Origin: a virus
Length of the DNA stretch: 25,701 bases
Direction: 5' to 3' (one strand)
IMG/VR virus record: IMGVR_UViG_3300007276_000263
Span: 1 to 25,701 of that record
Shown piece after piece: positions 1-23,516 of this stretch. The notes beneath the pieces are model-generated. The model did no database searches. It had not been told where the DNA came from and saw nothing but the letters and a program-made list of their open reading frames with translations. Each line of letters begins with the position of its first letter. Positions within the stretch are counted from its first letter, which is position 1. The translations under genes were made by a program, and so were the position numbers.

Positions 1-3000
1 AACCATAGCTTGAATCTCAGGATTAATATCTAAATTATATTTATCTAGATTTTCAAGTTCTTCTTCACTTAAGTTTCCTGCAACCCCTGCAATTTTAGAT
101 ACATTATTAGGTAACCCTACACTAACTAAATCTAAATTAACTTCGTCAGCAAATCTTACAGCTGCATTGCTTAATAACCTTGAGTCAGAAGAATCAGAGT
201 TTGTAATAATCCCATTAACGGCTATAACAGTTCTAGTTGAATCTTCTTCACTAGCTAGACCAGCTTCAATTCTATTAGATATAAATATCTCTCCTACAGG
301 GTTTGTATAAAATCCTACAGGTGCAGTATTAGCTTTATAATATCCACTACCTTGATTAGATTTTCCTTCACTATTATATGTAATAAAAGGACTAGTTCTA
401 TTTGCCGCAGGAGCATCAAATACTCCAGGCTCTACTAGTATACCATCAAAACCAAAAGTATTATTAGTTTTATCTAGCTTTAATCTTAGTATTCTATTTG
501 ATTTTGATAGAGTACTAATACTATGAGAATTAAGTCCATTATCATGTTTACCTAATAACACATATACTTTATTACAACTAACTGAAAACTCTAAATCTCT
601 AATAACAGTATTTGTCATAGGAACAAGGTCTTTATCTACTAAAAAGTTTGAAGCAGACATTCTTACAGACTCACCTATCTGAGTTCCTAAAATATTATCT
701 CTGTCATTTATATTTAAATTAAAAGCACTAATAACACATTCAGTGTAATCTAAACTAGCAGATTTAGACATAGTACCAATAACAATATATTGTTTGTTTG
801 ATGATACTTTTATTCTAGTATATAATTCACTACCTTCAGCAGTGTAACTATCTCCGTTAGCAACTAACTTATCTTCTAATAAATGATGAACAAAAACACT
901 AGCGCTACTATATTCAATACCACTAGCCCCTAGAACACCAATTTGAGGTGTTGCAAAACATAAATAAATATTACGTTTATTTTCTTTAATTTCATTGTCT
1001 GTATGTGTTCTAATAAATTTATATTGATTATCATTTGTTTTTACAATTTCATGTCCTCGTATATTAGCATTTGCATTTGTTCCAGTAGGAATATTTATTG
1101 AAGTTAGGTAACGATCATTATCTTGTATATTAGAATAAGAATAAGATGTCCCATCTTTTAAAACACTATTATCTTCTGCTGTAAAACTCTCTAAATTTAT
1201 GCTATGATGCGATGTTATAAATCCATAAATAATCCTATTTGATACATTAGGATCTGGAAACATAAACACAGAGTTTTGAGAATCAAAATTAAGCATTGCA
1301 GCTGCTGACGGTCCGAATCCTACTTGATCTAACAAAGTACCATCAAATCCTCTTAATGCATACATTCCTAAACTAGACTCTATAAAAGCTACTATATTTA
1401 AATCTAATTCATTTGAAGTTTGTACTGCTAAAGAGTCTATTATAGTAGAACTATTTAAAACATTTTCTTGTATTGTATTTGTAGTCACATCAAAAGTAAA
1501 TCCTGGCGCTACAATTTTAGAGTTAAATTCAAAACTATTTATAGGAAATATACCACTAGTTATATCAGTTGCAGGTTCTTTAGAATTAAATATTTGAGCA
1601 TATTTAATTCTATTATCATTATCCTCATATTTCATATGAGAAGCTTGTTCAATTAAACTTAAATTATGTAACAAACTATTACGTAAATAAGATTTTGAAG
1701 GTACATGAGTTGCTTCTGATAAAGAATAAACTTTAGGATTTGAAGCAAATATATTTACTGACACTTCAAGATCAGGGTCTGTAATTTTCATATATTTATT
1801 ATCAGATCCCCAGAAATATATACAACCATCATCTTGAAGAGTTACTTTTTGTAAATCCATTTCATCTACATCTATAACTCTTACACTATTATTTAATTCT
1901 TCAGATAGTTGTCCATGTGTGCATCCGTACGATTCTCCTTCTCCAGTTCCAGAATGTATATTATATATAGCAATTCTTCTACTGTTAGAATCTTCAGGGT
2001 TCTCAATGATAGTATATAAAAAATTATCATCTGGAGAAAACTCCATAGAAATAGGTGTCCATCCTCCATTAAAAGTATTCATTAAAGGAGAACCTCCTGC
2101 AATATGTAACTCTACTCCATTTTCAGTTGTAGGTGATACTAAAGAAAAGTTAGTATTATTTACTTTTGCTAAAACAAACCCATGCTTCATACCAATTGCT
2201 AAATGGAAATCTCCTACATGTCTAAAGCTATTATACGCTCCTGCTTCTCCTGAAGTAGCTTCATGCGAAGCATTAGTAAAAGAGGTATTTATATACAATG
2301 GGTGTAAATCACTTAGTATAGGTGAGGGAACTGCCCAAGCTTGAAAAGCTATATTATTTTTATTACAAAAAAATGAATTTCTAAATAATTTATTTCCTAT
2401 TGAAAGAGGTAATCCTGTAAATATTGAGGTTTCTTCTTCTTCATTTTCTGTTCCTAATTTAAATTCTCCATCTTCCCATTTTTTATTACTTAGGCTAACT
2501 AACCCTTTATCGTCAAAACTAAACCCTAAACTAAAAGGTCTTAAAAGCGTAGAATTTAAATGTTGTGAGTTATAAAAAGGAGTTACATCCATTTTAGTAT
2601 TTCTAACATCAATAGGATCTCCCATATTTGCATCAGGGTCATTAAGAATTAAACTAGGCTCACTCCCTATTTCTTGTTCAGTATAAGATCCTTCATAATA
2701 CATTTCTTGATCTCCTACCCAAGTAAATACATTTCTAGAATCTTCTGTAGTATTACTTTGCCCACTTGATGCTAAGTTAAGCGTAGTTATTTCTAAAAAA
2801 TTTTCACTACTATGAAACTTTAAAGTTTTTATACCTGCTATTGTAGGCAATATACAATGTTTTATATTTTCAAAAATACCATTGTCTATTGGATAAGTTT
2901 CAAGACTCATCTCTGTATGGTTAAGATTGTTAATTCCTAAAATTCCAGTAGCGCCAGAAGAGCCATATTCAGTTCGTGAAGCAGTATTAAACATTTTACC

Positions 3001-4380
3001 TACATAAGAAGGACTGCCTTCTTGATTTACTCCATAAATTTTTCCATTACGTACAGAAACATTTGTAATTTTTCCTCCTATATTAACAGCAGATACGCTA
3101 TCTATATTACCATAGGTATATGTATCTAAATTACAAGCAGATACTATTTCTCCACTACTATTAGTTTGAGGCAATGCATCATTTAATTTTAAATTATATG
3201 ATATACCTGATTTATTAGTCCAGTATAAATAATGATCATTAGCTCCATTTTGTGAGTAATAAAATTTAAAATTAGATAAAAATATATCTTGTCTTGTAGA
3301 ATGAGTAAAAGAAGACATTGTATATTCTATATCATTATACTTATTAAGATTTGATACTAGTTGTCCATCAGAGTTAAAAATATTTAAATTTCCATCTACA
3401 TTAATTAAACAGTAATATCTAATTTCTCCTACACTACTACCATAGTCTCCTTCATACTTATCAGTTATAACTAAACTAGTTAAAGGGTAACCATTATCAT
3501 TTAAATTGACAGGTAGTGCACTAATAATAGAATCATTTTGATCTATTATACTTGCAGGATTTTCAAAAGTACCTACAGAGTACTCATATACATTTGAATT
3601 ATTAGCTAAAAAATATTCTGAATAGTTATTACGTAAATAACTATAGTTAGTATTTCTATCTATTGTAGAAAATGGAGATTCTAAATATTGACAAACTCCA
3701 GCATTTATAGTTGCATCTGGATTATAGTTTGTTGCATTAGGATCTGTACAACCTAAGATTAAAGGAGTATTAGTTACACTAGTACCATAAGTAGATATAA
3801 CATTATTTGTTACAGAACTATAATTAGTTAAATACCCTGCTGATATAGACCCAAATTCACCTCTAGATATATTGTATAATGAAAGATAGTTTATACCTAA
3901 ATTAGAAGGGTTCATAGGAGATACTACTACTGTATCTGATATTCCTATAAGCAATCCAACGCCTCTAACTAAATAATTTAAAAGTAGTAATCCATGAGCA
4001 GAAGATTGATTAGTCCAATTTATACCTAAATTTAACTGTAAAGTATTTGCAGAAATTTTTTCTACAAACTTAACAGTTGTAGTATTAAAAATTATATGTA
4101 AGTCTGCGTCTGAATCCTGCTTAACTCTTACAAAATTAACTGTAGCAAAACTACCGTATAGATTGTTAAACAATAAAGACCATTGAAAAAAAGCATTTGA
4201 AATTTCAGTATCAAACTCTGAAGCGCTTAATACTGTACCTGGAATAACTTTAAGTCCTTCTATTCTTGGGTGATCTATAAGAACCCCACTTAATTCAGGA
4301 GTAGAATAAAAAATCTCAATGGACTGTACTTCATTAGAAATCTTACCATTATTAATGGCATTTATTAAACTTTGTATCAT
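1..4380 (-). CDS. Giant tail/adhesin protein with inactive matrixin-like N-terminus (partial, 3' end outside window)
   Basis: The frame is open from an ATG at 4380 to base 1, giving 1460 codons with no stop, so the C-terminus lies beyond the window. Residues 52-100 read like the first half of a matrixin catalytic domain: a helix of the type 'eve.Ai..AF..W', then FNN, then DADLHIIF, which resembles 'aDI.I.F'. Residues 133-172 then follow the zinc-site layout: LVRGVGLLIGISD stands where HExxHxxGxxH should be, followed by SPMNPS as a Met-turn. All zinc ligands and the catalytic Glu are missing, so I infer a structural remnant. Residues 210-230 hold a GCTDPNATNYN...C motif. Much of the rest is beta-rich, with propeller-like stretches such as FSPDDNFLYTI near residue 780. 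It begins 6 bp after the fibre gene and is probably co-transcribed. The likely role is a receptor-binding or tail-tip protein; this is inference. Confidence 0.8.
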   Translation of the reverse strand, partial: MIQSLINAINNGKISNEVQSIEIFYSTPELSGVLIDHPRIEGLKVIPGTVLSASEFDTEISNAFFQWSLLFNNLYGSFATVNFVRVKQDSDADLHIIFNTTTVKFVEKISANTLQLNLGINWTNQSSAHGLLLLNYLVRGVGLLIGISDTVVVSPMNPSNLGINYLSLYNISRGEFGSISAGYLTNYSSVTNNVISTYGTSVTNTPLILGCTDPNATNYNPDATINAGVCQYLESPFSTIDRNTNYSYLRNNYSEYFLANNSNVYEYSVGTFENPASIIDQNDSIISALPVNLNDNGYPLTSLVITDKYEGDYGSSVGEIRYYCLINVDGNLNIFNSDGQLVSNLNKYNDIEYTMSSFTHSTRQDIFLSNFKFYYSQNGANDHYLYWTNKSGISYNLKLNDALPQTNSSGEIVSACNLDTYTYGNIDSVSAVNIGGKITNVSVRNGKIYGVNQEGSPSYVGKMFNTASRTEYGSSGATGILGINNLNHTEMSLETYPIDNGIFENIKHCILPTIAGIKTLKFHSSENFLEITTLNLASSGQSNTTEDSRNVFTWVGDQEMYYEGSYTEQEIGSEPSLILNDPDANMGDPIDVRNTKMDVTPFYNSQHLNSTLLRPFSLGFSFDDKGLVSLSNKKWEDGEFKLGTENEEEETSIFTGLPLSIGNKLFRNSFFCNKNNIAFQAWAVPSPILSDLHPLYINTSFTNASHEATSGEAGAYNSFRHVGDFHLAIGMKHGFVLAKVNNTNFSLVSPTTENGVELHIAGGSPLMNTFNGGWTPISMEFSPDDNFLYTIIENPEDSNSRRIAIYNIHSGTGEGESYGCTHGQLSEELNNSVRVIDVDEMDLQKVTLQDDGCIYFWGSDNKYMKITDPDLEVSVNIFASNPKVYSLSEATHVPSKSYLRNSLLHNLSLIEQASHMKYEDNDNRIKYAQIFNSKEPATDITSGIFPINSFEFNSKIVAPGFTFDVTTNTIQENVLNSSTIIDSLAVQTSNELDLNIVAFIESSLGMYALRGFDGTLLDQVGFGPSAAAMLNFDSQNSVFMFPDPNVSNRIIYGFITSHHSINLESFTAEDNSVLKDGTSYSYSNIQDNDRYLTSINIPTGTNANANIRGHEIVKTNDNQYKFIRTHTDNEIKENKRNIYLCFATPQIGVLGASGIEYSSASVFVHHLLEDKLVANGDSYTAEGSELYTRIKVSSNKQYIVIGTMSKSASLDYTECVISAFNLNINDRDNILGTQIGESVRMSASNFLVDKDLVPMTNTVIRDLEFSVSCNKVYVLLGKHDNGLNSHSISTLSKSNRILRLKLDKTNNTFGFDGILVEPGVFDAPAANRTSPFITYNSEGKSNQGSGYYKANTAPVGFYTNPVGEIFISNRIEAGLASEEDSTRTVIAVNGIITNSDSSDSRLLSNAAVRFADEVNLDLVSVGLPNNVSKIAGVAGNLSEEELENLDKYNLDINPEIQAMV

Positions 4381-4386
4381 ATCTTT

Positions 4387-5922
4387 TTATTTCAAAGGCA
4401 CTACTTGTAACGCATATACTTTTACATCTGTAACTGCTGTAGCTACATTAACATCTACACTAACTGTTATTTTACTATTCCAATCTAATTCTAATCCATT
4501 TGTAAGACCTGTTACAGTATCATCAGTTCCAATCATTACAAATCCAAAAGCCATATATTGTGGAGTATCCGAATGCAATACTGTTATTTCGTGATGACAA
4601 AATTTACTGTTAGGGGCTGTAGTACCTGTAGCAGAAGATTCTAAAACTTGAGTTCCATCTACACCTATAGCAATAGTTTTAGTATTACCATTACCTGCAA
4701 AAAAGCAATGAGAAATTATTTTAAATCCAGTTCCTTTTGGGTACTCTCTTAAATCTACATCTATAGCCATAACAGGTTCATAAGCTCCTGTTGTAGTAGC
4801 TCTTTCTCCGTTTGTAACATCTATTGTACTAAATGTTTTAACTCCTGCTCCAGCTGAAGCGCTAGATACATTACTTTCTAAAAACCACTTGCCTGTGCCA
4901 TCATTATACAATTTTGCAGACTCTCCGTCTGTAGACATTATAAATGTTCTAGACCCTTGTACAGTATCTCCGCCACTAGTTTTTACAGTAATAGTATTTT
5001 TAGCTGCAGAATTACTTTCATCTTTTATTAAGTACTTTACTAGTTTAGCATTTTTCAATCTACCAATAGAAGGTAAAGTTAAAACTACAGCGTGGTTCTG
5101 AGATTGCACTCCTACAATACCTCTATTAGATTCTGTAAGAGTGTAAGTAGGAGTAGTTATTTCAATTCTATTATACTCACTATTAAGTTCTAGAGCTCTT
5201 TTATATTTATAAGGTGTTAGTGCAGAATCTTCTGATTCAAGATCTAATAACTCTTGCTCAGTAGCTACTTTCAGTATACCTGCTTTTTCTTCTGTAGAAA
5301 ATACTACATTAGTATTTACAATAGCAAATTGATGCCCAACTGCACCATGCTCACCACCATCAGAGTTTTCTACACATATAATTAAATCCCCTGCTTGTAC
5401 TTCAGGGCCATCTGTTGCAAACACATTTATATCTTGCTCTATAATAAACGATTCTCCTGCAGACGCTTTAGGGTAACCAGAAGTTCCCTTTTCTTTTTTA
5501 ACTGCTTTTAGAGTAGATTTTAATTCGTCGTCTACGAATTTTTTAGTAACAAGATCTTCTTCTTTAAATACATCAGGAGATGTTCTATAAGATAGATTCT
5601 TAATTAATTTTGTTGTCCCGTCATTTTTAATAACGTTATGCATTGCTGAATCTACATATTGTTTTGTAGTAAGATCTCGATTTCCTACAGGATGTTTAGC
5701 AGATACAGTAGTATTAAATTTAGGGGCAGCTGTATTAATAGTCCTTTTAGTAATTTGACGTTTTACTGTAGATATATCAGATGCCATTTGCGATACAGAA
5801 TCATCTAAATACTTTAAAAGATCTTGTTTAGAAATGTGTTTTTCAACTCCATTTTGAACCACCGCTATTAAGTCTCCTTTAGCGCTGACTTGGGTTCTAG
5901 GTACATTTATTTTTTTTGCCAT
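4387..5922 (-). CDS. Phage fibre protein (tail or head fibre)
   Basis: This 511-residue protein has the modular look of a phage fibre. The N-terminal ~60 residues (charged, helical) are a plausible virion-anchoring segment. Residues ~65-135 contain two copies of the fibre-stalk pattern 'DL.TK.YVD' (DLTTKQYVDSAM and DLVTKKFVDDEL). Around residue 210 comes STEEKAGILKVATEQEL...ALTPYKYKRAL, the common 'eKaGivklat...alTP..l' linker of tail fibres. The C-terminal half is beta-rich and Thr/Ser/Gly-rich, including a TLPSIGRLKNAK...GDTVQGS...W region typical of fibre heads. I infer a trimeric receptor-binding or head fibre. It lies between a short unknown protein and the left-edge giant, separated by 11 and 6 bp, so it belongs to the same operon. 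Confidence 0.75.
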   Translation of the reverse strand: MAKKINVPRTQVSAKGDLIAVVQNGVEKHISKQDLLKYLDDSVSQMASDISTVKRQITKRTINTAAPKFNTTVSAKHPVGNRDLTTKQYVDSAMHNVIKNDGTTKLIKNLSYRTSPDVFKEEDLVTKKFVDDELKSTLKAVKKEKGTSGYPKASAGESFIIEQDINVFATDGPEVQAGDLIICVENSDGGEHGAVGHQFAIVNTNVVFSTEEKAGILKVATEQELLDLESEDSALTPYKYKRALELNSEYNRIEITTPTYTLTESNRGIVGVQSQNHAVVLTLPSIGRLKNAKLVKYLIKDESNSAAKNTITVKTSGGDTVQGSRTFIMSTDGESAKLYNDGTGKWFLESNVSSASAGAGVKTFSTIDVTNGERATTTGAYEPVMAIDVDLREYPKGTGFKIISHCFFAGNGNTKTIAIGVDGTQVLESSATGTTAPNSKFCHHEITVLHSDTPQYMAFGFVMIGTDDTVTGLTNGLELDWNSKITVSVDVNVATAVTDVKVYALQVVPLK

Positions 5923-5933
5923 TGTTATATTTT

Positions 5934-6689
5934 TTATCTGTATGAAATATTTAATTCTATAGAGATGTCTTCTAAAGCTTTATTAAAAACATCTTTTTCT
6001 TTAGTAGTTAGATCTTTACCTTCACTATATGCGTTAACTCCTCCTGTAACTATTGCATTATGCCCTTGTAAAGGCCCTCCTGAAATAAGAGAAAAATTAG
6101 TTTGGAGAAAAGAATTGTATGTTCCATTTTGAATATTATTACTTGCTATAAATTTTTGATTATTAAAATCTGAGGTTTGAGGGAAATCTACATAAAAGAA
6201 ATTAAAATCAGATGAGTCTCCTCCAAAAGATATTTTAAAGTTACCTCTATTAACGCCTTGATCATCTATGTAAGGAAATTCATTAGGATGTTCTGTTGCC
6301 ATAACTTTTTTTCTAAAAAGATAAAAAAGATCAGCATTAGTGTATCCTACCGCTAAAGAATAATCACTCCAGTTAGGTAATTTAATTATAGGTATATATC
6401 TACCATTATAATTTTCTATACCTATAGCTAAATCTTTAAAAGATTCATTTTCTATTTTTCCTGGTATAGGTAATTTAACTTGTTTAGGGCTAACTCCTTC
6501 TATAGATGTAGGCGTAGAAAGTTTTGAGCCTATAAAAGAAATCCATGCAGACATTAAATTAAATTTTGAAACTTCTTTACTAGAAGCTGTACCATTAGCT
6601 AATTTATCAGATATTCTTAGTCCGTAAGAGTCTAACGCTTTGTTAGCTATAGTATATCTATCATGTAGTTGTTGTACTGTAAAGGCCAT
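5934..6689 (-). CDS. Hypothetical tail-module protein
   Basis: I do not recognise this protein (251 residues from ATG at 6689). A TTG two codons upstream at 6695 is in frame, but the ATG leaves a 7-bp gap after the stop of the 1717-residue giant and is the more likely start. Residues ~1-60 look alpha-helical (QLHDRYTIANKALDSYGL, then KEVSKFNLMSAWISFIGSKL). The remainder looks beta-rich with many aromatics, for example FNFFYVDFPQ. There is no signal peptide, membrane segment or catalytic motif. Its place between the zinc-protease giant and a fibre suggests a baseplate, fibre-connector or fibre-assembly role, but this is context only. Confidence 0.7.
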   Translation of the reverse strand: MAFTVQQLHDRYTIANKALDSYGLRISDKLANGTASSKEVSKFNLMSAWISFIGSKLSTPTSIEGVSPKQVKLPIPGKIENESFKDLAIGIENYNGRYIPIIKLPNWSDYSLAVGYTNADLFYLFRKKVMATEHPNEFPYIDDQGVNRGNFKISFGGDSSDFNFFYVDFPQTSDFNNQKFIASNNIQNGTYNSFLQTNFSLISGGPLQGHNAIVTGGVNAYSEGKDLTTKEKDVFNKALEDISIELNISYR

Positions 6690-6696
6690 AGTCAAA

Positions 6697-9600
6697 TTAA
6701 TTGTCGGTAAAGATAGGTAAATTAATAATTTTATTTATAACTTTGTGCATTTTTTTAGAAAGAGTCTCTTCATATGTAGAAGTCAAACTAGAATTAAGCT
6801 CTAAAACCTGCACCCTAGTGTATAATTTATTCATAGATTGAGATGTTCTTTGTGTGTTTGAATGTATTTCATAATAAATTTCGTTAGTAGTAGTATTATA
6901 TTTTACAACATAACTTCCAGAGTAAGGATTACCATCTATTGTGTAAAAATATTCGGAAATACTTGTATATAAAACACTAGAAGTAGCTATAGTTTCATCA
7001 ACAGAATATTTACTAGTAGATCTAAAAGATATTGCATTTCTGCTTTCATTTGGTATTAAATTTGAATCTAATATATCCTCAGAATACCCACTTAAGTTGC
7101 TTAATTGAGAACCAGAATATTTAGGAAGTTGGCTATATGTAACTTTAATTCCATTGCTTTGTGCAATTGCTGAATAGTTATCTGCTAAGTTACCTCCAAT
7201 AATATATCTTGGCTCAGTGTCTAAAGAAGAGGCACACGGATTTAAACTTTGGAGTTCTTCATCAGTATTAAAAATAGAAAAATCTAATATATATCCTCCA
7301 GTGTCTTCAGGACTAAAAAGTATTTGATTTTCACAGTTATAAGGAGTAATAGTTTGAATGTCAGATACAACACAACTACCCAATTTAAGTTCTAAATCAT
7401 CATTATTTGCATTTGAATTTTCTGTATACAATAAACAACCTCCAGTTCCGTCCGCTATTATAGGGTTTTCTATACAATTGTATCTTGCAGGTTTAATTTT
7501 TTCTCTAAATTGATAACTAGCTTGACCTGTACTATTATAATGGTTTAACAAAGGGTCTCCAAATATATATACTTTAATTTCGTTTGGTGTTGGGCGTTCT
7601 CCTTCTAAATCAGAGGGAAAGGGTAAATCACTCGCAGTTCTAATAGCGTCATTGCTGGTAAAAAAGCTGTACCAAGGTCTATCTTTTAGATTAATATGAT
7701 TATACAGTATAAGTTTATCAACACCATTTTCAAAAGTTCTAGTATCTTCATACCTCTTCCATATTAAATCTAATAAAGGAGTTTGAACTACTTCAGGATT
7801 TGAAGTGTAGTTATAAAAATCTCCTGTATCTTTATCTCTTATATATGTAATTATAGGATTATCATTACATACTTCTAGATTTTCAAGTTCATTACGTGAA
7901 GTACAAATTAATCTTATTATTGTATTTCTAGGTATAGCAGTAAATTGACAATTAGAATTATCTGAAGTATCTAATTCAGTTACAAGAACAGATGCCGCTT
8001 CTATTAAAGCTTGAGTATCGTATTGCTCAGAATATTCTAAAATATTATTTATTAAACCTGTACTATATCCTGCTCCGTAATTTCCTGAAGCTAGTGTATT
8101 ATTGCATACAGTTCCTACACATGATCCATCATCTGTATTTATATTAGTATTAAGTGTTCCATCAGCATGTTGTTTATAATTATCTGCCCAAGTTTGAAGG
8201 CACCCATAAATTCTTTCTACACAACTACCGTCATTATAAGTAGCTAATTCATTATAGTTATAGGCATTTGAGTCATTACAGCCACCTATTTGATCTTCTA
8301 AAGGAAAATTTTTCACGTATGTAGAAATAGATTCTATTATAGTTTGAAAATCAGATCTGGTTTCAGAATAAGATCCTAAATCTGTTGGATCATTTTGTTC
8401 ATATATAGCTTTATAATTATTAAGAATATCTGCATCTCTATTGTAAAGATAGTTTATTTTTTTAACCCAGTTTATTGGAGTATTTGTTAAAGAACTAACT
8501 GATGAAATTTCCCCATACATCATAACATCATTAAAACCAAATGGATTATATATTCCATAAAAATCTTCATGATAATATAATTTAGGTTCTGTATCAAACG
8601 CAACTACTTTTTTTGGATGAGTACTCCTAGTATTAAATTTATTATGAGATGCAGTTTCGCTAACATATTTAGCTAACGGATTATATCTAGGTGATGCAGA
8701 GTTTTCACTTCCTAGAGAATATCTACTTTCCATATTAGAAGCAGTGCTGGTAACACCTGTAGTCCAAGCACTTCCTTTAGGGTATCCTAGTCTTAACTCT
8801 GATTCCCACATATATAGAGTACTTGAAGAATTAAATTCTTTAGGAGCTTTTATAGCTTCTTCATCATGACTATTAGTGCCATAAATTTCTATTTTATATT
8901 GTGTATTTTTTTGAGTATCTATGTTATATACTACAGGTAAAACAGATCCCCATCCAAATCCACAATAACCACTAAAATAAGGCAAAGTTAAAACAGTTTG
9001 CTCTGGATCTTCGTACGTATGCAAAGCAACACTAGTTATATTATTTATTGTAAATAACTCAGGAGAATCATAACCATTTTTATATCTATTAGTAGTATAT
9101 GCTAACCAATTACTTGTATATCTATTACTCTCTTCTCTTCTAAAATCAGTTGAAAATTGTGGTTGGTTAACTAAATCTAACTGTAAAATATTATTAAACT
9201 TATCAAACGAAACTTTAAATTGATTTAGTGTTTCTAGTCTATTTCCAGGTAACATAGCGTGCGCAGCTGTTGCATAACCTTCTCCGCCTATAATTTGAAA
9301 TTCATAAGTATTTCCGTCTCCATTATAATAAGTTTGTGTAGTATGTAAACAAGGACAAAATTCTGGATCCATAAGATTATCTACAGGAGTATTGCTAGGA
9401 TAAGCAGGAAAATCAGGATTATAAGCATTAAAGTTATGAACCCAAAAAGGATCATAATATATATTCTCACTTGTAGTTTGAGAAACAGTACCTCCATCTC
9501 TATTTTTAAGACAGAATGGTATTCTAGTAGTTACATCTGGCCCTTTTCTAGTACCATCATCATTAGTAGGGTTAACTACAAGTTGAGTGGCTATAGTATT

Positions 9601-11850
9601 ATCTTCTAATAAATCTACTTGTTTTATATGAACAGCTGTACACAGACTATTCATCAGAGTACTTGTAGGACTATGACTTGTAGATGAGTTTCTACTAAAG
9701 TTTATTACCTTCGCTATTCCACTACTTGCAGTAGTACTTGTCCATACCCTTACAGTGTTAGTGTTTGTACCAATAGTTGAATGATCTCCGTATAGATTTG
9801 TATGAAAATCTGTATCATTACCTATATTTTGTCCACCCATAGCCGCACTCCCATTATCAACTAACTCTGATAACAACTCTGCATCTGGTAAAAAGAAACC
9901 ATCTTGTTCTTCAATAGCCATAGCTTCATCCCAAGTAGCAGTAAGTGCTACAACCTTTATAATATATGCATATCTTTGTTCGATAGGTTTTCTACCAAGA
10001 CTTCCATTTAAAACTACTCCATCTTGATATATAGATCCAAATGCTGGAGGATTTTTTAATATATACGAACCTCCCCAAAAAGAGCTTACACCATTCATTA
10101 TATCTAGTAAAAGTTGTGATTGAGCAAAACTATTACTTGCAGAAGTATTTGAAGGTTTTGTTGCAGTAGCATATACATTATCTGAATAATAAACACGAGC
10201 TTTTGCTCCGCCATCACTTAAACTTCCATTAAGAAATTTTACGTTTACAGAAAAATTGCGAGTTACTTCTGGTAAAAATTTATTGTAAACATATTCTATA
10301 TATCCTTTTTCGTCTTCATTTAAATCTATAAAATCTCCTATTTTTATACTAGATGTACTTTCAAGTCTATTATTTAAAAGAGTTTTTCTTTCTGCGTACT
10401 TTTCAATTATTTCACTAAGAGATCTATTATTACCTGCAAATCTATCTAAAGGTAAATTAGACCAATAATTATAATCTTCATCTGCTTTATCAGAATCTCT
10501 TTTTATATTTTTATATAATAAATTTTCTGTCTCATATGCAAAAGGAGGTTTAAGATCAAAATTTATAATTTTTTTATTTAATATGCTAGTGTCAGAACCT
10601 GGATAACTTGTGTATATAGTTTCTGCTCCTGGAAAATTTTTAAAAATTTGATGTAATTCTCCACTAGAAAGAGTTTTTACTAAATAGTCTACTGCATTAG
10701 TTCCAGCAACTACAGGAACTACCCATGCATGTGTTCTACCTGTCGTGTGTTCAAACTCATGCGCAAAAGTGTTACTGCTTATATAATTTCCTCCTTTTAT
10801 TCGTTGTCCTGAATTTGTATAAGGAATTTCCATAGACGCAGACCAACTATTTTGAGCTACATAGCTACTAGCGGCATATCCCATAGCAAAATATGAAAAC
10901 CCAAGTTTACTATACCCTTGATGATTCATATTTCTAAACCAAGTAGTACCTTCGTTTTCAGAAGAGTTATAATCTTGTATATCACCTAGTATTTTAGATT
11001 CTATATCTAAACTTGTATTGTTTCCATTTATAATTTTTTGTATACCATTTAATTTTGTATAAAACTCATTATCTAAGTTTTCTGAATCTTGCACATAAAG
11101 TCCTGGAAAATCTGATGCAAAATATAAATACTCATTATTTAACAAGTTCCTAGCTATATTGTTTGCAGGTACTTCTAAGTAATCAAGTAGTTCTATTAAA
11201 TTTACTTTACACCCTGACGATTCTGTAAAAAAATTATTTACAATATGATCTACTTTTACTCGGTTAGGAAAAAAGAATTGTATATTAGGATATAGTTCTC
11301 GCAGTTCTCTATGAGAAACAAATTCATCTTCAAACGTATCAAGCTCTTCATTATATATTTGAGCTCCTGTATAGTATCCTATATCAGTAACTTTAGTTTT
11401 ATAATACTCTGCAGACTGATTTCCTGTAGTATGATCTTCTATAGTAAAAGGATTAATTTGACTATTAATATTTGTATTAACGTTTACATCATAATCAGCC
11501 TGTCCAGATAACGCTAAATTATATTTATTTATTCCGTCTATACAACTATTATATTTTGAATTCTGGTTGTAATTAACATTTAATGCGCTAACGCTATCAT
11601 TGTTATACTCACTAAAAAAAATTATAATAGGAATATAAACAGTATCACAACTACCATCTACACAATTTTCTGGATTTACAGTATTTCTATAATTGCGATT
11701 TAAGTTTTCCATTGCCAATCTAATTGAAGGGCTATTATCTCCAATAGTTTCATCGTAATGTGCATCACAACTATGTGGATTATTAGAAGTAAGTTTAGAA
11801 ATACCTTCTGCTTCTTTAAGAGATATTCTTGTATATGGAGTTTTACTCAT
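6697..11850 (-). CDS. Giant tail protein with intact metzincin zinc-protease motif (M43-like)
   Basis: This is a 1717-residue protein. Residues 364-374 read HEFEHTTGRTH, a perfect HExxHxxGxxH metzincin signature: three His zinc ligands, the catalytic Glu and the conserved Gly. Before it, residues ~41-80 (helix, then VYIPIIIFFS) resemble the start of M43 pappalysin/cytophagalysin domains. I cannot place a clear Met-turn. Residues ~624-747 hold WDEAMAIEEQDGFFLP...VRVWTSTTASSGIAKVINF...CTAVHIKQ, which follows the DUF1566/Lcl C-terminal pattern (a formylglycine-generating-enzyme-like, C-type-lectin fold). Residues 1189-1244 contain two Cys/Asn motifs (GCNDSNAYNYN...DGSC and YGCLQTWADNY...DDGSC). 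Its first 8 bp overlap the end of the M43-like 482-residue gene, implying translational coupling. I infer a virion-borne protease/adhesin that cuts or binds host surface protein during adsorption. A tape measure is unlikely because it lacks long helical repeats. Confidence 0.85.
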   Translation of the reverse strand: MSKTPYTRISLKEAEGISKLTSNNPHSCDAHYDETIGDNSPSIRLAMENLNRNYRNTVNPENCVDGSCDTVYIPIIIFFSEYNNDSVSALNVNYNQNSKYNSCIDGINKYNLALSGQADYDVNVNTNINSQINPFTIEDHTTGNQSAEYYKTKVTDIGYYTGAQIYNEELDTFEDEFVSHRELRELYPNIQFFFPNRVKVDHIVNNFFTESSGCKVNLIELLDYLEVPANNIARNLLNNEYLYFASDFPGLYVQDSENLDNEFYTKLNGIQKIINGNNTSLDIESKILGDIQDYNSSENEGTTWFRNMNHQGYSKLGFSYFAMGYAASSYVAQNSWSASMEIPYTNSGQRIKGGNYISSNTFAHEFEHTTGRTHAWVVPVVAGTNAVDYLVKTLSSGELHQIFKNFPGAETIYTSYPGSDTSILNKKIINFDLKPPFAYETENLLYKNIKRDSDKADEDYNYWSNLPLDRFAGNNRSLSEIIEKYAERKTLLNNRLESTSSIKIGDFIDLNEDEKGYIEYVYNKFLPEVTRNFSVNVKFLNGSLSDGGAKARVYYSDNVYATATKPSNTSASNSFAQSQLLLDIMNGVSSFWGGSYILKNPPAFGSIYQDGVVLNGSLGRKPIEQRYAYIIKVVALTATWDEAMAIEEQDGFFLPDAELLSELVDNGSAAMGGQNIGNDTDFHTNLYGDHSTIGTNTNTVRVWTSTTASSGIAKVINFSRNSSTSHSPTSTLMNSLCTAVHIKQVDLLEDNTIATQLVVNPTNDDGTRKGPDVTTRIPFCLKNRDGGTVSQTTSENIYYDPFWVHNFNAYNPDFPAYPSNTPVDNLMDPEFCPCLHTTQTYYNGDGNTYEFQIIGGEGYATAAHAMLPGNRLETLNQFKVSFDKFNNILQLDLVNQPQFSTDFRREESNRYTSNWLAYTTNRYKNGYDSPELFTINNITSVALHTYEDPEQTVLTLPYFSGYCGFGWGSVLPVVYNIDTQKNTQYKIEIYGTNSHDEEAIKAPKEFNSSSTLYMWESELRLGYPKGSAWTTGVTSTASNMESRYSLGSENSASPRYNPLAKYVSETASHNKFNTRSTHPKKVVAFDTEPKLYYHEDFYGIYNPFGFNDVMMYGEISSVSSLTNTPINWVKKINYLYNRDADILNNYKAIYEQNDPTDLGSYSETRSDFQTIIESISTYVKNFPLEDQIGGCNDSNAYNYNELATYNDGSCVERIYGCLQTWADNYKQHADGTLNTNINTDDGSCVGTVCNNTLASGNYGAGYSTGLINNILEYSEQYDTQALIEAASVLVTELDTSDNSNCQFTAIPRNTIIRLICTSRNELENLEVCNDNPIITYIRDKDTGDFYNYTSNPEVVQTPLLDLIWKRYEDTRTFENGVDKLILYNHINLKDRPWYSFFTSNDAIRTASDLPFPSDLEGERPTPNEIKVYIFGDPLLNHYNSTGQASYQFREKIKPARYNCIENPIIADGTGGCLLYTENSNANNDDLELKLGSCVVSDIQTITPYNCENQILFSPEDTGGYILDFSIFNTDEELQSLNPCASSLDTEPRYIIGGNLADNYSAIAQSNGIKVTYSQLPKYSGSQLSNLSGYSEDILDSNLIPNESRNAISFRSTSKYSVDETIATSSVLYTSISEYFYTIDGNPYSGSYVVKYNTTTNEIYYEIHSNTQRTSQSMNKLYTRVQVLELNSSLTSTYEETLSKKMHKVINKIINLPIFTDN

Positions 11851-13291
11851 TATAAATTTTATTAGAAATTGTTGCTATACTTTTAACTTTTCTAGAAAAC
11901 TCTTTTATATTTTTATCCTCTTTAAAACTAAGCTGATTGTATATCATAGTTCTATTATTATTAGAAATTGTAGCTTTACGATCTTTTTGATCACATTGCT
12001 CTTCTAAAGATGGCTCTGGTAAACTAACTACAACATTAGAGTTTATTAATTTAGTTAAAATACCAGCATTTAAAGATCCGTCATCTTCTATATAAGAAAG
12101 CCCTATGTTAGCCTTTACTCTTAATTGTTGCATTAGAGTAAATGTATAGTGATGCATAATAGTAGTTGATATTTTGTAAGACATAGGATTAATAAATTCA
12201 CTGTCTTGTATATCATATAAAAAGTCACATACTGTACTTACAAAAGGTTTTTCAATATCTGGGAATTTAGAAACAACAGCATCATAATCACAGCTATAAC
12301 AAAAATCTGATCCAATAAACCTATTATACACGCAATTCTGATTACAACTATTTTCTATTGAATCTCCTTGTTCTACTATTGAGTAATTAAAACTATTTAA
12401 AGGTGCTAAACCTAAAGCATGTCCTATTGCTTTTACTAAAGGTTTAACCATATGATTTTTACTTCCAAAATAACTGTAAATATTATGTGAATCACTATGA
12501 ATTAAAGTTTTTACTTGATTTTGAATAGGAGTTTCTACTGTATATCTATATCCATACCCAGGAAATTCTTCAGACTGCCAAGGGTTGCCTAAAGCATAAA
12601 AAGGAAGCGTAATATTATATGTAGAACCATTTAAATTATCAAAAACATATGGGTTAGGCGCATCTACTATTATTTTAGTATTAAAAGTAAATGAGTTTAT
12701 TAAAAATATATTTAATACATTTTGATTTCCCCAACTGTAGTCTGTGTATAATTTATTTAAAGAAAAACCAATGTCTGCTATAGGGTTAACATTTGTTGAT
12801 CTATCAAAATACGAGCCAGTAACTGTAATACCTTCTTCAGTATATAACCTATTTATAGTTTCTGTGCCTGGAACTCGTCTGCTATCGCGTAGATTCATAG
12901 CGTCTACAATATGTACTCCAGGTATCCCTAACTCTTCCATATTCCCAGATCCTAAGTTATGAATTACAGGAGCAAAAGTTATATTTAAGGCAGAGTATGT
13001 AGTATTTAAATCTTCTATAATTTTAGCTACATCAAAGTCAAAGCTTTGCCCACTAGGACTTACTATATTATAACTGTCTAATATTAAATGAAATACAATA
13101 GGTATAATAGCTTCTCCATCATAAAGGTTAGATGGGCCATTGTTTACAAAAGAAGTTATAGAATTTTGAATATAGTTTTCATACTCAGTTAAATCTATAT
13201 CAGAAACATTAGCAGCAGCTAAGTTAAGCTGCCAACTATCTAATGCTTGGTTCGATACTGCGTTTATATTTAAACTATTACCTATAGCCAT
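11843..13291 (-). CDS. M43 pappalysin-like pseudo-metalloprotease, tail module
   Basis: This 482-residue protein follows the order of an M43 (pappalysin/cytophagalysin) peptidase. Helix plus IIPIVFHLI lies at ~62-70, a helix KIIEDLNTTYSALNITFAPV at ~90-109, LNIFLINS at ~193-200, the zinc-site region at 287-297, a Cys-rich stretch at 316-355 (CNQNC, CYSC, C) and a Met-turn-like INPMSY at 367-372 followed by a helix with QQLRVKA. The zinc site reads KAIGHALGLAP, where an active enzyme has HExxHxxGxxH: the first and third His and the catalytic Glu are gone, and only the middle His remains. It is therefore probably not a protease; a binding or structural role is inferred. It starts directly after the stop of the 190-residue gene and overlaps the giant protease gene by 8 bp, so the pair is likely made in a fixed ratio. 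Confidence 0.82.
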   Translation of the reverse strand: MAIGNSLNINAVSNQALDSWQLNLAAANVSDIDLTEYENYIQNSITSFVNNGPSNLYDGEAIIPIVFHLILDSYNIVSPSGQSFDFDVAKIIEDLNTTYSALNITFAPVIHNLGSGNMEELGIPGVHIVDAMNLRDSRRVPGTETINRLYTEEGITVTGSYFDRSTNVNPIADIGFSLNKLYTDYSWGNQNVLNIFLINSFTFNTKIIVDAPNPYVFDNLNGSTYNITLPFYALGNPWQSEEFPGYGYRYTVETPIQNQVKTLIHSDSHNIYSYFGSKNHMVKPLVKAIGHALGLAPLNSFNYSIVEQGDSIENSCNQNCVYNRFIGSDFCYSCDYDAVVSKFPDIEKPFVSTVCDFLYDIQDSEFINPMSYKISTTIMHHYTFTLMQQLRVKANIGLSYIEDDGSLNAGILTKLINSNVVVSLPEPSLEEQCDQKDRKATISNNNRTMIYNQLSFKEDKNIKEFSRKVKSIATISNKIYNE

Positions 13292-13864
13292 TTACTGCAT
13301 ATTTTTTATAGATTCTAATAAACTTTTTGCTAACAATGCTCTTTCTATATCAGAGTCATCACAATCTTCGCACCCTAAATTAATAGTTCCCATTAACCTT
13401 TCAACTATTTTTTGAGAGGTGCAAATATTTTTAAATGTAAATTGAAACTCTCTATTATACTTAGATGAAGTTATGTTTGCAAATACTTTATACACATTGT
13501 CATCTAACACTTCTTGTATTGGTTCGTACGATTCAGGTATTCCTGGAAAGTTAGATACCTCTGTAGATATATCATATGCAGGTACTGAAACTTTAAATCC
13601 TCTATACGTATCTTCAGAAGGATATATAACAGTGTTTGCAAAATTAGAAAGAAATATTGGGGTTGTATATTGTGTACCGTTTGGCAAAGTAAGATAAATA
13701 ATTAGAGAAAGGTTTAAATTAAACTCTTCCCTATTACCACTAATATTAAAACTTCCCCATCCTCCAGGGTTAGAAGTCTCATTATATAGGCCTGTTACAT
13801 CTTCAATAACAAGATTTTTACAATCATTTGTTGTACTTATGTTTAGTTTTAAGTCTAATGCCAT
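13292..13864 (-). CDS. Conserved-looking phage structural protein, first gene of tail module
   Basis: This 190-residue protein of unknown function has an N-terminal beta-rich part with NDCKNLVIEDVTGLYN and SNPGGWGSFN. A 'D.TG.Y...NPGGWG' arrangement is, to my recollection, recurrent in structural proteins of Bacteroidota phages, but I could not check this. The C-terminus has a CEDC pair followed by a helix (RALLAKSLLESIKN). There is no signal peptide or membrane segment. It is the first gene after the intrinsic terminator at 13874-13909, and its stop abuts the start of the pseudo-metalloprotease. A small adaptor at the tail tip or baseplate is plausible from position only. Confidence 0.75.
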   Translation of the reverse strand: MALDLKLNISTTNDCKNLVIEDVTGLYNETSNPGGWGSFNISGNREEFNLNLSLIIYLTLPNGTQYTTPIFLSNFANTVIYPSEDTYRGFKVSVPAYDISTEVSNFPGIPESYEPIQEVLDDNVYKVFANITSSKYNREFQFTFKNICTSQKIVERLMGTINLGCEDCDDSDIERALLAKSLLESIKNMQ

Positions 13865-13873
13865 TGGTAGAAA

Positions 13874-13909
13874 TTAAAAAAGGGCAGACAGATAAGCTGC
13901 CTGCCCTTT
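13874..13909 (-). terminator. Rho-independent terminator between head/neck and tail modules
   Basis: Read on the minus strand, a perfect 9-bp stem (AAAGGGCAG pairing with CTGCCCTTT) encloses a 13-nt loop that can itself form a 3-bp CAG/CTG stem. The stem is followed at once by a run of T residues (TTTTTT, partly inside the stem), then AATT. It starts 28 bp after the 432-residue gene's stop and ends about 10 bases before the next ATG. This is the only GC-rich hairpin with a T tract that I found in the window. It should cut or reduce read-through from highly expressed capsid/tube genes into the tail genes. Confidence 0.85.
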
Positions 13910-22698: not shown

Positions 22699-23088
22699 TT
22701 AGTCTACTTCTAATAGTAAAAACTCTACTCTAGGAGTGTTAGCTGAAGATTTAACTTGGATCTTTGTGTTATCTGCTGTAGGGTAAAATAAAAATTCACC
22801 TGGAGATAACATTGCAAATACTTGATCTCCGTCATCTGCAAAGATTAAATCATCTGTTGCATCTGTGTTTTTTGCATATACATATGCTTTCTTACCACCT
22901 TGAGTAGATCCTGATAAAGCTTCAACGTTAATATCTGCGTATGAAGTGCTAGTTACCATTGTAGTTAAACCTTGGCGGTTATCACCATCTATAGTAAGAG
23001 CATCTGATACAGTCTTAGATAAATTAACTGTGTTTAATAAATCTGAGCTTGATAAGCTAAAATTTACATTTAAAGTTGCGTTTGCCAT
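22699..23088 (-). CDS. Small virion protein, paralogue of the upstream gene
   Basis: This 129-residue beta-rich protein shares layout with the 136-residue product just upstream. Both start MA.. followed by a VN(F/L)SLSS strand, have KAYVYAKN versus RAYLFLHN in the middle, then SPGEFLFYPTAD versus GPGEFLFIPIAD, and close with VEFLLLEVD versus VEYVLMEKA. I see no catalytic residues. The tandem pair between terminase and portal, expressed from promoter 1, fits capsid decoration or a head-vertex protein; this is inference. It ends 9 bp before portal. Confidence 0.75.
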   Translation of the reverse strand: MANATLNVNFSLSSSDLLNTVNLSKTVSDALTIDGDNRQGLTTMVTSTSYADINVEALSGSTQGGKKAYVYAKNTDATDDLIFADDGDQVFAMLSPGEFLFYPTADNTKIQVKSSANTPRVEFLLLEVD

Positions 23089-23105: not shown

Positions 23106-23516
23106 TTATGCTGCTTTTTCCATTAGTACGTATTCTACTACAGGGTTACCTGCTGCTGCTTCTACGTCTACATCTTGCATATCTGCAATAGGAATAAATA
23201 AAAATTCTCCAGGCCCTAAAACTGAAAACCAGTCACCTGATGCTGAGTCTGTACCATGAGCTGCACATAATCCTACTTTAACATACTCGCCCGTAGTTGA
23301 GCTTATATTGTGTAAAAATAAGTATGCTCTATCGTTTGTTCCGTCTAATGCCTTTAAGGCTATATTGTCTTCTGTTCCTGACCCAGTAGTTTTAAGTCTA
23401 CCGATCAGCATCTGATCTCCTGCAGGAGATAATACATCTGTCTCTGTAAAGCTCAAACTTTGCTTTTCAAACAAGTTTGTGCTAGAAAGAGATAGTGTTA
23501 CATTTACTGTTGCCAT
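23106..23516 (-). CDS. Small virion protein, first gene after promoter 1
   Basis: This 136-residue protein is a tandem paralogue of the 129-residue neighbour, 17 bp apart. The paralogy rests on aligned landmarks: MATVNVTLSLSS at the start, RAYLFLHN in the middle, GPGEFLFIPIAD at ~105 and VEYVLME at the C-terminus. The product is mostly beta with no Cys-based or enzymatic motif except one Cys (CAAHG). It has an ATG start 36 bp after promoter 1's -7 box. A capsid decoration subunit is the most likely role. The pair may have diverged to occupy different positions on the head. Confidence 0.75.
   Translation of the reverse strand: MATVNVTLSLSSTNLFEKQSLSFTETDVLSPAGDQMLIGRLKTTGSGTEDNIALKALDGTNDRAYLFLHNISSTTGEYVKVGLCAAHGTDSASGDWFSVLGPGEFLFIPIADMQDVDVEAAAGNPVVEYVLMEKAA

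Follow-up and report, generated by a model that had tools for sequence, protein, structure and literature searches.

Why does a phage carry three protease-like domains side by side among its structural genes when only one of them has an intact zinc site? The question is raised by a crAss-like phage fragment, a linear sequence of 25,701 bases that is the whole of IMGVR_UViG_3300007276_000263 (the window). It concerns three proteins: P0005 (482 amino acids (aa); 11843..13291), P0004 (1717 aa; 6697..11850) and P0001 (at least 1460 aa; 1..4380), a giant that runs off the window edge. These genes, the rest of their block and every motif located below lie on the minus strand. A sequence-only reading had picked out the three as metzincin-derived by the motifs KAIGHALGLAP, HEFEHTTGRTH and RGVGLLIGISD, and a check of the sequence found the open reading frames (ORFs) and motifs where it had placed them. 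We found a conserved set: a live M43-like protein whose catalytic domain, by profile, takes in an insert the size of an adhesin, a dead M43 paralogue and a dead matrixin. The answer that we favour, and to which we give an even chance, is that the block is a fast-evolving host-recognition module (tail fibre or adhesin) of an environmental crAss-like clade, built on three metzincin domains, of which a live, zymogen-like protease would cut and the two dead heads would bind.

Three metzincin domains and their zinc sites

The zinc-binding helix of P0004 (residues 364-374; 10729..10761) has the M43 pattern HExxHxxGxxH. H364, E365, H368 and H374 were invariant in 18/18 aligned giants with a mean column identity of 19%, and syntenic relatives only 13-35% identical to P0004 still kept HExxHxxxxxH. 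In contig G017, two live giants stand in tandem (L082:1730-5548, HELGHSFTLSH; 5548-9255, HELGHTFALKH), which suggests a duplication of the live gene; their Gly is replaced by Thr or Ala, but HExxH and the third His persist. Among PDB structures, the N-terminal profile of P0004 matched the metzincins fragilysin (8e-6), PAPP-A and mirolysin (each about 1e-4). The Pfam M43 model did not match the window giant and matched its relatives only below the cut-off; therefore, we call P0004 M43-like by profile and not a filed member of the family.

For P0005, a profile built from 17 syntenic homologues matched mirolysin (1.2e-5), ulilysin and PAPP-A. Its AlphaFold2 (AF2) model (predicted local distance difference test (pLDDT) 76.6, predicted template modelling score (pTM) 0.79) aligned over residues 16-424 to promirolysin (Z 20.0, 253 residues, 3.2 A) and also matched proulilysin (Z 19.8; Foldseek 1e-7), with the prosegment region covered too. 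Profile and model thus assign the fold to M43, as the sequence-only reading had supposed, and P0005 is, on its predicted structure, a pseudo-pappalysin: a homologue by fold and not a peptidase. Its zinc helix KAIGHALGLAP (residues 287-297; 12401..12433) has lost the catalytic Glu and two of the three His, keeping the second His alone; the family alignment places the Met-turn at NPMSY (residues 368-372; 12176..12190). The Glu was missing in all 21 distinct family members with a readable site, and the zinc ligands were kept to a varying degree, from HSLGHILGLFH (L026) to KGLVTSLGVMQ (L015). Some P0005-like proteins reach 958-1088 aa (L006:12680-15946, L017:12707-15583, L036:12557-15502) through an extension at the C-terminus that has no assigned fold.

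The third domain heads P0001 (residues 1-200; 3781..4380). The first 240 residues, modelled by AF2 with 10 homologues (pLDDT 84, pTM 0.82), matched best karilysin, an MMP-like enzyme from Tannerella forsythia (Z 15.4, 141 residues, 2.2 A; Foldseek 6.6e-6), and all the structural matches listed were karilysin or matrix metalloproteinases (MMPs). By this model, the head has a matrixin (M10-like) fold, which agrees with the matrixin layout read earlier from the sequence, and its site is dead: the former zinc helix is RGVGLLIGISD (residues 139-149; 3934..3966), and HExxH was lost in the window and in 11/11 relatives. A Met-turn remnant, SPMNP (residues 154-158; 3907..3921), has counterparts still visible in most homologues. 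The minimum length of P0001 given by the sequence-only reading was right as a minimum, but the protein extends further than the window shows; most relatives have 2,200-3,300 aa. Contig G010 encodes the dead matrixin domain by itself, as a protein of 252 aa (L062:3434-4192) before a separate one of 1151 aa.

The division into one live and two dead sites, also part of the sequence-only reading, is therefore not a chance feature of one genome, since the live motif is kept in all 18 giants and the dead states are fixed across the families of P0005 and the P0001 N-terminus. The suggestion that P0004 had regained catalysis was rejected because its site is invariant in every relative read, with no sign of an earlier loss; the decay is in the two copies that flank it. 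The idea of one fold used repeatedly survives in part. All three domains are metzincins, but only P0005 and P0004, whose profiles match each other, are probably M43 paralogues. The P0001 head showed no profile similarity to either outside the zinc helix, and so it was probably acquired separately from the M43 pair. A single origin of all three domains within the virus is not supported by the same comparison. The first proposal that the fold serves as a structural or binding element is supported.

A predicted split catalytic domain and a candidate latency switch in P0004

To locate the rest of the catalytic domain, we tiled 41 windows along the aligned giants and compared each with the P0005 profile (hhalign). 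Giant windows 59-129, 306-431 and 1083-1176 matched P0005 residues 56-97, 270-295 and 363-395, in that order, at an expectation value (E) <=2e-3. The remaining windows gave E>=0.34, except the next two, which overlap the first matching window (59-129). The three collinear matches correspond to the first strand, the zinc helix, and the Met-turn with the C-terminal helix. In the window giant, these are the strand VYIPIII (residues 71-77; 11620..11640), the zinc helix given above, the Met-turn NDVMMY (residues 1107-1112; 8515..8532) and the C-terminal helix (residues 1127-1139; 8434..8472).

We read this as one M43-like domain, predicted from the profiles, in which a large insert (residues 375-1109; 8524..10728) separates the zinc helix from the Met-turn. 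Catalysis by pappalysins involves a tyrosine switch, the Tyr two residues past the Met of the Met-turn (PMC11674741). A Tyr at this place was found in 14/14 giants and the Met itself in 11/14, making it a candidate switch here too. The distance from the third zinc His to this Tyr is 738 residues in the window giant and 516-922 across the giants. The corresponding distance in cytophagalysin (CPL1) is 45, from residue numbers H241 and Y286 (PMC11674741). Within the insert of three relatives (L074, L026 and L011), there was a match to Lcl_C, a lectin-like domain (best 1.9e-8); in L027, the Lcl_C match was placed after the Met-turn. If the split domain is true, a metzincin tolerates hundreds of residues between its zinc helix and its Met-turn.

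P0004 also has a candidate cysteine switch, Cys28 (11767..11769). In promirolysin, the prosegment residue Cys23 maintains latency (PMC8259862), and a Cys at residues 11-30, upstream of the first strand, was present in 17/18 giants. By analogy, this Cys may ligate the zinc. Among the P0005-like proteins, a Cys within the first 25 residues was found in 6/6 of those keeping three possible ligands for zinc and was absent from all others; for any N-terminal Cys, the counts were 6/6 and 2/15, respectively.

The gene block, its relatives and its position

The window carries, in minus-strand order of its main genes, TerL, portal, major capsid protein and a crAss001-type auxiliary capsid protein, followed by the metzincin block. 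The capsid, portal, terminase and auxiliary capsid families of Crassvirales were all matched in their usual order (phrog_11589, phrog_6547, phrog_6681 and PF25650), and the gene order is that of Cellulophaga phage phi14:2 and Bacteroides phage crAss001. The window TerL is 40% identical to that of phi14:2 and 28.5% to that of crAss001; the capsid protein also matches crAss-like phages. The TerL of the cyanobacterial Leptolyngbya phage Lbo-JY46 (H54, PP438436.1:114988-116796) is 25% identical to the window TerL over 93% of its length. Two small neighbouring genes between TerL and portal (window 22699-23088 and 23106-23516) are paralogues of each other, and their counterparts in relatives are paralogues too.

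The auxiliary capsid protein P0007 (13938..15236; PF25650, E 1.2e-11) flanks the block, which is headed by the conserved small protein P0006 (190 aa; 13292..13864), recognised by synteny and placed where phi14:2 has gp098, a structural protein confirmed by mass spectrometry. Next come P0005 and, just downstream, P0004, their ORFs overlapping by 8 nt. P0003 (5934..6695), conserved by synteny, lies between P0004 and P0002 (4387..5922). P0002 is the best conserved protein of the block (35-65% identity) and weakly resembles a family of tail collar fibres (phrog_910, E 7e-4). P0001 closes the block. Both P0004 and P0001 contain Cys-rich repeats of the type GCTDPNATNYNPDATxxDGSC (window 8194-8283 and 3664-3753). 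Repeats of this type make up much of some 700-824-aa proteins further on in relatives (L060:16-2490; L061:15857-18004; L067:47-2281).

Direct searches with P0005, P0004 and P0001 found no Pfam or PHROG family, apart from a chance match of P0004 to DUF6364. With tblastn, the three found no relative in 50,697 phage records other than repeat matches, and none in viral contigs. For this reason, relatives were fetched by synteny, anchored on a conserved neighbouring gene, P0002 and the capsid protein. The order P0007-P0006-P0005-P0004-P0003-P0002-P0001 recurs in them. One search of bacterial genomes for a copy, made with P0002, gave a single weak match (L084).

When the window is compared with its relatives, identity is 85-93% for capsid and terminase but 23-37% for P0005, 23-36% for P0004 and 26-46% for the P0001 N-terminus. 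Such a strong contrast to capsid and terminase is usual for host-recognition proteins, and the faster divergence is what is expected of tail-fibre or receptor-binding proteins. At the position of the block, phi14:2 has structural proteins confirmed by mass spectrometry and crAss001 has its tail-hub and ring genes; in crAss-like contigs that are more distant, this place is taken by other genes. The sequence-only reading had spoken of a tail module: the gene order fits a tail or fibre module, and the divergence fits host recognition. By analogy with these phages, P0004, P0005 and P0001 would be located in the virion, presumably in its tail.

Two further observations concern virion zincins and diversification. 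Another structural protein of phi14:2 confirmed by mass spectrometry, gp081 (L085:8361-10142), has two HExxH motifs (HEFTHAMGVD and HEFIHASAKS) and is possibly another zincin in a crAss-like virion. Diversification driven by a diversity-generating retroelement was considered for the block and rejected, as window 1-13900 has no long internal repeats and 6/7 related contigs have no reverse transcriptase; the sole match among the seven (L137, G018:82632-83213) is in a crAss-like contig without the metzincin module.

What the block may do, and how it compares with known systems

Under the host-recognition reading, a pappalysin-type protease would have been opened between its zinc helix and Met-turn and would have taken up 500-900 adhesin-like residues. 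The N-terminal Cys would probably hold P0004 latent. At the host surface, P0004 would cut a protein, for example of the S-layer or outer membrane, and the cut would clear a path to the membrane. The dead paralogue P0005 and the dead matrixin head of P0001 would be binding or assembly domains that do not cut. We infer the proteolysis by P0004, its latency and its target from sequence; cutting of a host surface protein at adsorption, already raised by the sequence-only reading, may be its role. A more specific form of this proposal, which we hold tentatively and believe somewhat less likely than the module itself, is a surface-activated tail device made of a latent split pappalysin-type protease with an inbuilt adhesin of 500-900 residues, plus two dead metzincin heads, so that one diversifying fold both recognises and clears.

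Several points weigh against this reading. The split domain of P0004 is a prediction from profiles, and no Lcl_C match was detected in the window giant itself. The association between N-terminal Cys and zinc ligands in the P0005-like proteins falls to p about 0.04 once close relatives are collapsed and is only suggestive. Moreover, the auxiliary capsid protein has diverged too between the window and its relatives (33-52%), and therefore the divergence is not limited to the three metzincin proteins.

The main rival, which we judge unlikely, is that P0004 is a virion-maturation protease that processes itself or P0001, P0005 and P0003 during assembly, with the dead metzincins as substrates or regulators. 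P0004 does sit in a structural gene block beside two other giants, the overlap with the gene of its dead paralogue means that the two are probably made together, and a residue resembling a Cys switch implies regulated activation. If its targets were conserved parts of the virion, however, such a protease should be conserved as well, and the divergence of P0004, set against that of capsid and terminase, disfavours this explanation, even if its neighbours have diverged as well and may have co-evolved with it.

We find it improbable, and a little more so, that the proteins are purely structural or receptor-binding, the zinc site of P0004 serving stable folding or binding that depends on zinc, while any proteolysis is irrelevant to infection. 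Two dead domains out of three are still conserved as folds, and three possible zinc ligands persist in some P0005-like proteins that lack the Glu, an example within the group of zinc without catalysis. Stability alone, however, does not explain a general-base Glu in 18/18 giants and the Tyr in 14/14, both of which are catalytic in pappalysins (PMC11674741). That P0004 is a cargo protein or effector acting in the host after entry is very improbable: crAss001 virions do package cargo proteins ejected through the muzzle (PMC10172136), but the cargo-type genes of crAss001 have another position, downstream of its muzzle gene (gene roles as given in PMC10172136 and as generally known), and Lcl_C-like domains and Cys-rich repeats would better suit an exposed protein.

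Among known systems, phi14:2 and crAss001 arrange the genes for TerL, portal, capsid and auxiliary capsid protein as the window does, and likewise have structural genes after the auxiliary capsid gene. They differ in having other proteins at the position of the module, and the P0005 and P0004 profiles found no match in these two phages or in four other records. In Listeria, a metzincin/TIMP-like pair of phage origin is reported (PMC8235301), likewise a metzincin beside a partner protein; there, a phage remnant encodes a secreted protease and an inhibitor-like lipoprotein, not giants of a structural block.

The lower pappalysins (MEROPS M43: mirolysin, ulilysin and CPL1) are the closest comparison for the M43 pair. 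P0005 shares their fold, including the prosegment region, and P0004 shares the zinc motif and has a predicted Met-turn with a Tyr two residues on, an N-terminal Cys and these elements in the same order. The known ones are secreted cellular enzymes, whereas P0005 has neither the catalytic Glu nor most of the ligands, and the short His-Tyr spacing of CPL1 contrasts with the hundreds of residues in the giants. The upper pappalysins, human PAPP-A and PAPP-A2, are also very large M43 proteins with accessory domains, and the P0005 model matches them with Z about 14-15; they are cellular proteins and not phage structural genes, with no adjacent pair of a live and a dead gene. Karilysin and the MMPs (M10) have the fold of P0001 residues 1-200, where a Met-turn remnant persists; the phage domain lacks HExxH and heads a protein of 2,200-3,300 aa.

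Each domain belongs to a known superfamily; what we found nowhere in the searched literature is their conserved set in phage structural gene blocks. That search showed no metzincin or pappalysin in the tails of crAss-like or other phages, with subscription journals mostly outside it. These results suggest that an environmental crAss-like clade uses a fold familiar mainly from secreted proteases to grip, and probably to cut, host surface proteins. Within a single gene neighbourhood, the clade further provides a natural series of decaying proteases, from three ligands without the Glu through partial to total loss, and hence a test bed for dead enzymes turning into binding proteins. It provides a concrete host-recognition candidate for crAss-like phages outside the gut, where recognition is poorly known. 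Phage tails are well known for enzymes that cut glycans; a conserved virion protease that attacks proteins of the host surface would offer another way past a protein layer.

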